From positions 372,001-436,000 of the forward strand of contig NW_026570222.1 of the NCBI RefSeq assembly GCF_019649055.1: a stretch of 64,000 bases of DNA. The letters run 5' to 3'. The notes below the pieces were generated by a model. It did not search any database, was not told the DNA's origin, and was given only the letters and a program-made list of their open reading frames with translations. The DNA comes from Paramacrobiotus metropolitanus. Its lineage: Eukaryota > Tardigrada > Eutardigrada > Parachela > Macrobiotidae. A program made the translations under genes and the position numbers. Of this stretch, positions 18,780 through 44,585 are shown piece by piece. Numbering within the stretch: the first letter of the stretch is position 1; each line of letters starts with the position of its first letter.

Positions 18780-20015
18780 ATGTTGCGCTGGATGTTTATC
18801 ACGGCCGCAACGTGTGTATCGTTGCTGATTCCCATGCAGATTTCGGCGCTGTGGACATACCCGGGTTTTATCACCACGTCCGACTCTGATTCCGTGAAGC
18901 AAGCTATCCTCAACTTGGTCCACTTTGTTCCGAAATCCGATCCGCAGTTTATCGTACAAAAATTTCTTTATTCTGACCCAGAACGCACTCAGGTCACGGT
19001 AGGTGACTCTGACCTTACAAACATCCAAAAGGTGACCAAGTCTAAGCGAGCTGAACGCCAGCCCTTAGTGATCGAAGCTCTCGAAAGTGGTGCCGGAAGT
19101 CTGGCACTCGGAGATTCGGGCGCATTTGGTATGGAAAAGCATTCAAAATTGTCCTTGGTTGCTATATTGTTTTGCTAACTTCTTAAAGTATAGAAAGCGA
19201 ACATTTTCAGGGTTATACGTAGATGTATCATGTAATAAGTTCATAAACTTCATATGCATTAATCTCTTATGAACGTTTGAACGCCTTCCTTAATGATTTT
19301 TTTTAGAAATAGCGTCACGCATGCTGTACAGACTTCCCGGGTAAAACAGTGTGTCAAAAAACGTTAATTGAACGGGTAATTACCGCTAGGTGAACGGATG
19401 TACCCCAATTTTGACCTTTAACTAACGTTTAACTAAATTGTTTTAAAGCTGCTTTCTTTTAAAGCTGTCTAGACCTTGTGATGCCGGATGGGTAATAAGT
19501 TTATTTACATATTATCACTTTCTGCATAGTTTTTAACTGCATAAATAAATACATCTTTTATATAAAACCTGCAAATTATAGCATACGGTTTTTACAAAGG
19601 TAACGTGCGTGAATTTTGAATCGCATGCGTTTGCAATTTTTTCAGACTGCCATCCGAATGATGAGTCTGTAACAAAAGCTACATGTCCAACGCTGGATAG
19701 AAGGGGACGGTGAGTGACATTTACCAGGTTACGTATATGTTTTTGTTTGCCATGGACATAAGAGTTTTTGTCGTTTTCACTTAAAATTAAACAGAAACAG
19801 TACAGTGACACCATAAAAGCTGTTTGCCTTATAGAAGCAGTTTTGCAGGTATCGCTGTATTACTAGTAGCATGCTTTGCGATGGGAAGCGTCACTGTCCA
19901 AATGGCGAAGACGAAAACGACGTTAGTGCTGCCGATTGAACGAAAAAATCTACAAATTACCATCTCACACATTTCTTTGTTTATTTTTTTTACAGCTGAT
20001 GTGTATGTTTTATAA
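18780..20015 (+). CDS. Small predicted type I membrane protein, unknown family
   Basis: ATG at 18780 opens with a clear signal peptide: MLRWMF, then a hydrophobic stretch ending near MQISALW. Exon 18780-19128 ends TTT G before a GT, and 19849-20015 begins after TTTTGCAG. The phase fits and puts GIAVLLVACFAMGSVTVQMA directly after the exon-1 sequence. That stretch is a good transmembrane helix, followed by a basic stop-transfer (AKTKTT). The full two-exon frame gives 171 residues. A possible extra intron (GTTAGT near 19920 to TTTTACAG near 19995) would shorten the tail to a few residues. The ectodomain of about 90 residues is rich in Asp, Ser and Lys, has no cysteine pairs and matches no family I know. 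Without exon 2 the first exon would encode a 132-residue secreted protein. Confidence 0.45.
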
Positions 20016-41346: not shown

Positions 41347-43549
41347 GATCGGCGGATCCTCCATGTGCCATTTTAATCAAAAGCATGTTTGTTTTGTTTC
41401 TTTGGCTGCTGGTGGCTGGAGATTAGTTGCTAATCTGTTTCATTTGGCTAATTTGCTTGGCTTGTTGATCCCAGGAGATGCGTTTATTGGTGATTTGGTT
41501 ATCGAGTTCTGTGCTCATTGTGTAGTTGGAGTGGCTTTGCAAAATTATATGTAATACGCCCTGATTCAGCCAGAGAAGCCCTATGTTTCATAACCCAAAC
41601 TGGGTTGAGAAGTGAATAGATGGTACTTCCGCTGAGTGATTTGTCTTCTAAACGGTTCAGAATTAAAGCATTCTCGTGTGCCGAGAGGTTGCGAAGTTTA
41701 TCTGCGCAAGTGGTCTGCCTGTCTGACATTGCTTATGTAAAACGCGGAAAATACCGTAAATATTAGTAATTTTGATTTTGGCATGGACGTCGACGCCGTC
41801 GATATACGCTTCCAAACAGAACGAAGCATCTTCGAGGTCAAGTTATCGCCTGTGTAGTGATTGCGTTATATAAAAAAATCGTACGGAAAAGACACTTTCC
41901 AATGTCCAGTCGTACCACACATCTGCTATTTGGTGTTGCGACTGCATGTAGGCAGTCCGTAGTACGATCGATACTTCACTGCATCTGCATGCATCCGAAG
42001 TCGTATAGTTAAAATAATGATAGTAACTCATCTGTACTGTATTATTTTTCTGTCGAATATGAAAATATCACTACTCGTATCCATGAGACCCTTGACGATG
42101 TAAAACCAAGCTACACAAATGCATAAAGCATAAGTAAGTACAGTACTTCATTGATCAGCACTCTCAGCCCTGCGGGCAGTGTATCTTGCCTCCTCGCTAC
42201 AAGGAATTGTCGGTTATCTTGCATACCGGGATCAAGCGGGTTTTATTTTGTAGCGGCTTGCAGATTTTTGACAGCATAAAAACTCATTATTGTGCAAAAA
42301 TTGCATACTGTCCAATGTCCATCAATCTCGTACACAACACAGAACGTACGGTAATAAATGCATAAAATAAAAAAAAACATTAAGCCCCGTTACTGCAAGT
42401 TGTACCACCAACGTAAAATTAATATATAAACTCCGAGCAAAATAATTTATTACGGATAAATGTATAATAATAATGTAAGAATATGCCGCGTATTATTCTT
42501 TTTACCATCGTATAAATGAGTTGAATGCAAATAACGTCGTTTGCCGGATAACTGTGATATTAAACGGAAAGCCCAAAAGTCATTTTACTGGGAATGAAGT
42601 TGGCTTTGTGGATAATTTAATGAATTCAGCTGCGAGGTACCTATCCATGGGAACAACATTTAAGGGATGATAAAGGAGCCGACGCGATGATGCAGTGGAC
42701 TGTAACGAAATCGATTTTGCCGGGTTTTGTCGCGCATCGTGATTTAGGGTTCGCATGACCAATTAAAATCCACGGGGGAATGCTGCTCACTTGAGAAAAA
42801 CGTGTCCACAGTGAACAGAATGCGACATTTCCTATAACGTAAATAAAATTGTAGAGCACAGTAAATGAATACGCGTATGCTTATTTAATAGGAGATAAAT
42901 CGTACACATCCGCCTGCTTGTCGATAGAAAGTGCGCTTACTGCACGGATGCCCCTAATTACAGCTGCGTGAATGCCGGCGCTGCCTCGTACAGACTCTGT
43001 GCTGACTTTAATAGCCCCAAAAAGTAAATTTAAAATAAACCCGAACAAAACCTTAGTATGATATGAAACATGTCTTACAAAGGTTAAGAATATTCGTGCC
43101 CAACCAACGGCAGCTGCACCTAATAAACGTACGCCTAATATACAGTTGTCTACTGGGTGAGTATCCCGTAGTGATCAGATCGCGTGACCCCGATGTATTC
43201 CTGACTAACAATAAGTCCTACTTTATTAATATGTTATTTGATTTGTATTTGCACAATACTATTTATGTGCATACTATTACATGTGATAATAAAGCATGGC
43301 ATATGTAAGTCTTCGCCGATCACGGCCACTTTGATAAATGAGTTTTATTGATGAATTTTCATTATTTGCATTGTTGTTTGCATAACGAGTCTAAGGGATT
43401 GTCTGCATTTCTCGAAGACGTTCCCAAAAGAGCGACGTCACCTTACTAAAGTGACACACAAGCGGGGACGAAAATATGTTGATAATGTTTAGAATGAATG
43501 TGTATCGGCAGTCAAAAGTCCACTTACAATTCAGAGCTGTAACAGCCAC
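41347..43549. other. Intergenic region, no supported gene
   Basis: GAPDH and the minus-strand peptide gene converge here. ATTAATATATAAA-type AT-rich words are common. The minus-strand frames at 42580-42859 overlap each other and look non-coding. I see no RNA gene or repeat array. Confidence 0.45.
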
Positions 43550-44585
43550 TTATCTTCGGCGTCCACTCTTATGCAGTCCTTGGCTCAGCTTCCGCAGATT
43601 TTGTAGACTAACGTTCATTGAAAAAGGGAGTGAGACCCGTGACGACTTTGGTTGGTGGAATGCTATTACATCAGGGATTTCAATCCCCACTGGAAAATAA
43701 AACAGTTAAATCGCTGTCACACATGCAGTGAACTTTACCATTCTTCCGTCTAAAAGATGTACATAAAAATAATCAGATGCGGATAAGGTCAATCACTCTC
43801 CATGTAATATTGCCGTTGGAGAAGAATCACTTTTTCCATCGCTGCATTCGCAGCACTTCTTAACCCAAACCTTCGTATCGTACAGTTTTTCTTAAATTAA
43901 TTTTATTCCCTTTGGAACACTGTCTAGAAGAGCTTGATGAGATATGGTTTTGACTGAACGGACACATTTATGGCTATTTCCATGACCTCCGTCTTAACTA
44001 ATTACTCCATAAAAAGCTAACAGAAAAAAGCAAATATGCCCCACCGTACGTCGCATCTACAAGACGAATTTATTGTACGCTAATTAAAACCCCAAAAATT
44101 AAAACTTTTTAACTCCCTAAGTGTCTGTTAGATTTTTAGCCTTGTTAATTTTGCTAATTCGGTACTGCGGAATAAGGAATGTTAAAGTGTGTCTGGTGTC
44201 TACCATACTTACGAACTCTTTTGCGCCGAACAGGATCATCGGATGTTCGGAACCATGCCGGCATGGATGGAAGAGAGGGAGTGGACAGAAGAGGAATAAG
44301 TGTGTCAGCGTTAACGTTGATTCGGTTTTCCAACGAAGAGTCCCATAAGGAAGTGCCGGCTTCGAGGTTGTCGTGATCTGCGTCGGCTTCAATCGGCACT
44401 GATTCCAGGTCGCCGGCATTGTTCTCACGGCGTGGCACTAATTGACTGGCCAGCGTGTAAGGCACAATCGGCAGTGCAGAGGGCTTCCAGGATATGGCCC
44501 ACACCTTCGCCGATGGGAATAGTGCGGCACACCATAATATCCATATCGTGAAGAGGACTTTTGTACTCCACATATTCCCACCCAT
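43550..44585 (-). CDS. Neuropeptide precursor, CRF/DH44-like candidate, amidated
   Basis: Exon 44585-44213 ends GTT C before GTAAGT, and exon 43689-43550 follows TTTTCCAG. The phase fits and gives 170 residues. The N-terminus has a signal peptide (MWSTKVLFTIWILWCAALF, then SAKVWA). A spacer rich in Asp, Glu and Asn leads to the tetrabasic site RRKR at the end of exon 1. Exon 2 then encodes exactly one 43-residue peptide followed by GRRR and stop, a perfect amidation and cleavage tail. The peptide begins VLGIEIPDVIAFHQ and contains PFSMNVSLQNLRKL. This aligns by eye with the N-terminal LSI..P.DVL of insect DH44 or with the PISIDLSLELLRK core of sauvagine. The length and C-terminal amide fit that hormone family. 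A parathyroid-like or another class-B receptor ligand remains possible. Release from neurosecretory cells is inferred. The start may be ATG 44585 or 44573. Confidence 0.7.

Follow-up and report, generated by a model that had tools for sequence, protein, structure and literature searches.

Does a locus on the minus strand of the window (the whole 64,000-nucleotide stretch analyzed here) encode a secreted, amidated neuropeptide, and does that peptide belong to the CRF/DH44 family, whose hormones serve stress responses and water balance, as the initial annotation proposed? Judged from its sequence, the locus is probably a two-exon gene for the precursor of a secreted orphan amidated neuropeptide. 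The evidence for this assignment, and the alternatives against which it must be weighed, are presented below.

Organization of the candidate gene

The coordinates originally given for both exons proved exact when read against the sequence (Table 1). Exon 1 contributes 124 codons from an ATG at 44585 on the minus strand, which lies in good context (A at -3, G at +4); an in-frame ATG at 44573 offers a second possible start. The encoded N terminus is hydrophobic (VLFTIWILWCAALFPSA) and is followed by a cleavage-like VWA site, both features being read directly from the sequence. An acidic propeptide then runs to RRKR-V, one base before the donor. This donor, GTAAGT, starts at 44212, and the acceptor, TGTTTTATTTTCCAG, ends at 43690. 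The 140-base second exon lies behind a strong acceptor (TTTTATTTTCCAG), rebuilds the split codon as C+TG and is free of stops in the phase used but interrupted in both other frames. The resulting spliced ORF of 170 codons (170 aa) comprises the signal peptide, the propeptide, the convertase site RRKR, the 43-aa VLGIEIPDVIAFHQPKSSRVSLPFSMNVSLQNLRKLSQGLHKS, and GRRR followed directly by a stop. The amidated-neuropeptide grammar initially described, in which a signal-peptide exon ending in RRKR precedes one 43-residue peptide, GRRR and a stop, is therefore correct in the spliced ORF.

Unspliced read-through of exon 1 would yield a VRKY-GR end; we rejected this product because VRKY-GR is largely a translation of the GTAAGT donor. 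A perfect GTAAGT donor is also present on the minus strand at window positions 43522-43527, approximately 22 bases past the exon 2 stop, and may indicate an intron in the 3' UTR.

The gene is single-copy in the 170-Mb genome, and a search of that genome for paralogues returned none. The assembly searched comprises 169.8 Mb in 533 contigs from one species. It contains at least 10 CAHS loci, with 37-71% identity to a Hypsibius CAHS probe (best E=3e-69); CAHS proteins are not known outside eutardigrades, so the animal is a eutardigrade.

Table 1. Features of the candidate gene (window coordinates) and canonical DH44 genes of the same genome (locus coordinates)
Feature	Position	Strand	Basis
Exon 1, coding part: start codon, signal peptide MGGNMWSTKVLFTIWILWCAALFPSAKVWA, propeptide, RRKR, V, first base of next codon	44213..44585	-	Translation, ORF, hydrophobic N terminus, single copy in genome
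Intron, 523 bases, phase 1, GTAAGT...TTTTCCAG	43690..44212	-	Sequence; joint-best acceptor
Exon 2, coding part: predicted mature peptide LGIEIPDVIAFHQPKSSRVSLPFSMNVSLQNLRKLSQGLHKS, then GRRR (amidation and cleavage), TAA	43550..43689	-	Sequence; AlphaFold2 helix over MNVSLQNLRKLSQGLHK
AATAAA, possible poly(A) signal, ~200 bases past stop	43344..43349	-	Consensus match only
DH44 gene L001, ...SGLTLSITSPLEVLREKIRIDNQKFKLKQLSRKNKSNARFLKDL-GR-stop	C112, 871-1632 of L001		Above Pfam cut-off
DH44 gene L002, ...SGLTLSIMSPLDVLRDKMKQQMALRRLMQKSRTASDNAKLMKEF-G-stop	C66, 1495-2001 of L002	minus	Above Pfam cut-off
DH44 gene L003, ...VDLSLSIMAPLSVLQEKMELEARRREGLMQRQVRIGYNQRKLKKL-G-stop	C22, 1156-1632 of L003		Below Pfam cut-off

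Expected frequency of the two-exon arrangement

A scan of both strands required an ORF that opens with a signal peptide and carries a basic site close to a GTRAGT donor, a strong acceptor to which it connects in phase, and a following exon whose frame closes with glycine, basic residues and a stop. The real 64-kb window contains exactly one such case, the candidate. Across 6691 order-3 Markov windows of 64 kb, the mean was 0.0016 cases per window, with at least one case in 0.13% of windows. Among the ten best acceptors by pyrimidine score within approximately 3.7 kb, that of the candidate ties for best (score 12), and it is the only one of the ten to give an amidated end. Codon usage in exon 1 falls at the 97th percentile of random frames and is coding-like; that of exon 2, at the 67th percentile, is neutral and uninformative.

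These results bear on the explanation that a signal-peptide-like ORF merely lies upstream of an unrelated frame ending in GRRR, the two being either not spliced together or not expressed. The rarity is persuasive without being decisive: scaled to 170 Mb, the Markov null predicts about four chance cases genome-wide, and the neutral codon usage of exon 2 and the lack of a visible homologue in the Pfam and genome searches likewise favor coincidence. However, the probability per window is low, and the convertase site, the phase, the strong donor and the strong acceptor all agree. We thus consider it unlikely that the structure is a product of chance, with transcription and splicing of the gene being predicted from its sequence.

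Relationship to CRF/DH44 and other class-B ligands

The Pfam CRF model (PF00473) identifies three canonical DH44/CRF precursor genes in the genome. In each of them a continuous frame, apparently a single coding exon, spans the signal peptide, the convertase site and the peptide. The lowest-placed of these, L003, scores 19.6 bits against a Pfam cut-off of 22.1, and 29.8 bits when held out of our own CRF/DH44 profile. The candidate is absent from the PF00473 matches in the genome, and hmmscan of the candidate against Pfam returned nothing at E<=10. On our own profile it scores 2.0 bits, a value reached by 54 of 2000 of its own shuffles (2.7%), versus 8-33 bits for held-out genuine members (~30-33 for the genome's own DH44s, 16 for urocortin 3 and 8 for the aberrant Manduca DH30). 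Pairwise comparison with reference peptides of eleven families detected no similarity to the genome's DH44 paralogues above that of shuffled sequences (p=0.70).

Because the profile score lies within the shuffle range and the long C-terminal helix is absent, we have not filed the candidate as a CRF/DH44 member; on these sequence comparisons, the membership initially suggested is not supported. The length of 43 residues does match DH44/CRF peptides but is misleading as a sign of family, since the activation-like motif is reached only at about residue 23, with nine residues after it, whereas in CRF/DH44 peptides the motif comes first and 17-30 residues follow. No equivalent of the LGIEIPDV stretch, previously likened to DH44/CRF peptides, occurs in the DH44 peptides compared, and its family matches span only 6-7 residues at chance level. 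Like members of the CRF/DH44/urocortin/sauvagine family (PF00473), the candidate is a predicted secreted precursor in which a basic site precedes a single amidated peptide, and it shows a short in-register motif resemblance; unlike them, it carries the motif-like stretch well inside the peptide, and an intron interrupts its gene immediately ahead of the peptide. It shares with the genome's DH44 genes the signal peptide, convertase site, amidated end and some N-terminal residues ahead of the motif, but those genes encode full-length peptides. The family is not reshaped by the candidate, as three conventional genes represent it already.

The sole positive sign is that RVSLPFSMNVSLQNLRKL shares the register of the CRF activation motif (candidate PFSMNVSLQNLRKL, sauvagine PISIDLSLELLRKM), but the resemblance is weak. 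Sauvagine, the best partner, aligns over 14 residues with a score of 37 (single-peptide p=0.003; family p=0.006, uncorrected over 11 families). FSMNVSLQNLRKL fits the motif spacing S-[ILV]-x-x-[PST]-[LFV]-x-x-L-[RQ], with p values of ~0.003-0.012 before correction for the families tested. Scored with a motif PSSM, the candidate reaches p=0.003 when compared with random 43-mers and p=0.012 when compared with its own shuffles. One explanation would be a divergent CRF/DH44 paralogue in which the N-terminal receptor-activating motif persisted, while an extension was added at the N terminus and most of the ectodomain-binding C-terminal helix disappeared; such a peptide might partially activate a DH44-type receptor or modulate it. 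This history is consistent with the in-register match to S-[ILM]-x-x-[ST]-[LF]-x-x-L-R, with the ~6-17 residues that also precede the motif in the genome's own DH44 precursors, and with the two CRF-receptor-type loci described below. It is difficult to reconcile with a profile score in the shuffle range when the held-out DH44s of the same genome reach 30-33 bits, with the absence of above-chance similarity to those paralogues, and with a gene structure that differs from their single-exon arrangement. Moreover, only nine residues (KLSQGLHKS) follow LR where a helix of 17-30 residues was sought, and five other frames or places in the window outscore the candidate on the motif PSSM. We therefore regard descent from a DH44 gene as improbable. 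A more radical version, in which the gene specifies a new tardigrade hormone with a CRF activation motif near its C terminus and an N-terminal extension in place of the ectodomain-binding helix, forming a rearranged class-B ligand beside three ordinary DH44s, appears quite improbable.

The genome encodes about a dozen or more class-B receptor loci, and its many class-B receptor exons fit the reading of the candidate as an orphan peptide ligand. Presence of a DH44-type receptor, proposed earlier as a check, is supported by two CRF-receptor-type loci (C127 and C67), assigned by best match among solved structures; these could include a PDF receptor, because the list of structures compared contains none from the PDF receptors, their sister group. 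The conventional DH44 system appears complete without the candidate, so that the presence of these receptors gives no support to a CRF/DH44 assignment. A locus at C6:751-755k (L067, G000:C6:751000-757500) has PTH receptors as its best match among solved structures, and one on C89 (L068, G000:C89:111000-117500) has a similar hormone-receptor domain. Three others (C10, C188 and C6:682k) are calcitonin/DH31-like, by eye only.

Given the PTH-receptor-type loci, the candidate might serve the iPTH (PXXXamide/QSGamide) system of tardigrades as its ligand, or bind a different class-B receptor, such as that for PDF or DH31. As in the candidate, iPTH/PXXXamide peptides are amidated via GRR and cannot be recognized by homology to vertebrate PTH, and a receptor of their type exists in this genome. 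Tardigrade PDFs are divergent. A search of the genome with PF06324 (PDF) found nothing above cut-off, and this model is therefore unusable as a positive control. Pairwise comparisons with PDF, DH31, PTH and calcitonin were at or near chance, and the Pfam search, as noted, was empty; the PTH and calcitonin families, which the initial annotation had named for comparison, thus provide no match. Tardigrade PDF derives, like the candidate, from a two-exon gene, and it is one short peptide acting on a cAMP-coupled class-B receptor (PMC11879619). However, PDFs have 18 residues versus 43 in the candidate, and in place of an 18-residue N-x-E-L-I-N-type peptide we found a best alignment to known PDFs that is local and out of register (family p=0.039, uncorrected). 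The iPTH peptides carry a conserved SD near the N terminus and a mildly conserved Pro at -4 (PMC7224569), neither of which occurs in the candidate. Taken together, these comparisons make an iPTH, PDF or other known class-B identity very unlikely.

Predicted maturation and signaling

If the locus encodes an orphan amidated precursor, signal peptidase would cut after ...KVWA, and prohormone convertase would cut after RRKR and at RRR. Carboxypeptidase would trim the arginines, and PHM/PAL would convert the exposed glycine to a C-terminal amide, giving VLGIEIPDVIAFHQPKSSRVSLPFSMNVSLQNLRKLSQGLHKS-NH2. Given only the exon 2 peptide, AlphaFold2 places a single helix over MNVSLQNLRKLSQGLHK and leaves the N-terminal half disordered; with a mean pLDDT of 71 and ~84 in the best helix block, this single-sequence model is indicative only. 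The mature peptide would then combine a flexible N-terminal half with a short amphipathic C-terminal helix. An amide together with such a helix is a common design among peptide ligands of G-protein-coupled receptors. We infer that the gene is transcribed, spliced and processed, and that its product signals as an orphan ligand, most likely through a receptor of this kind. From the helix and the amide, a class-B receptor would be the most natural guess, and it is possible that the peptide is a ligand of one.

A sequence search of the PDB with the peptide returned only a chance match (E=1.2), and the sequence was not found in the open literature on tardigrade precursors. The main tardigrade neuropeptide survey, Koziol 2018, lay outside that literature search and reportedly describes four novel families; the candidate gene may already be one of them. 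If real, the gene adds an orphan amidated peptide to the neuropeptide set of a phylum in which few peptide systems have been functionally tested, and supplies the class-B receptors of this genome, those of PTH type among them, with a candidate ligand. It also illustrates how a short exon behind an intron can evade ORF-based annotation.

Elsewhere in the window, at 18780-19178 on the plus strand, lies an ORF present once in the genome, whose product looks secreted (MLRWMFITAATCVSLLIPMQISALW...) and carries a KSKR site; it has no Pfam match and is possibly another peptide precursor or a secreted protein.
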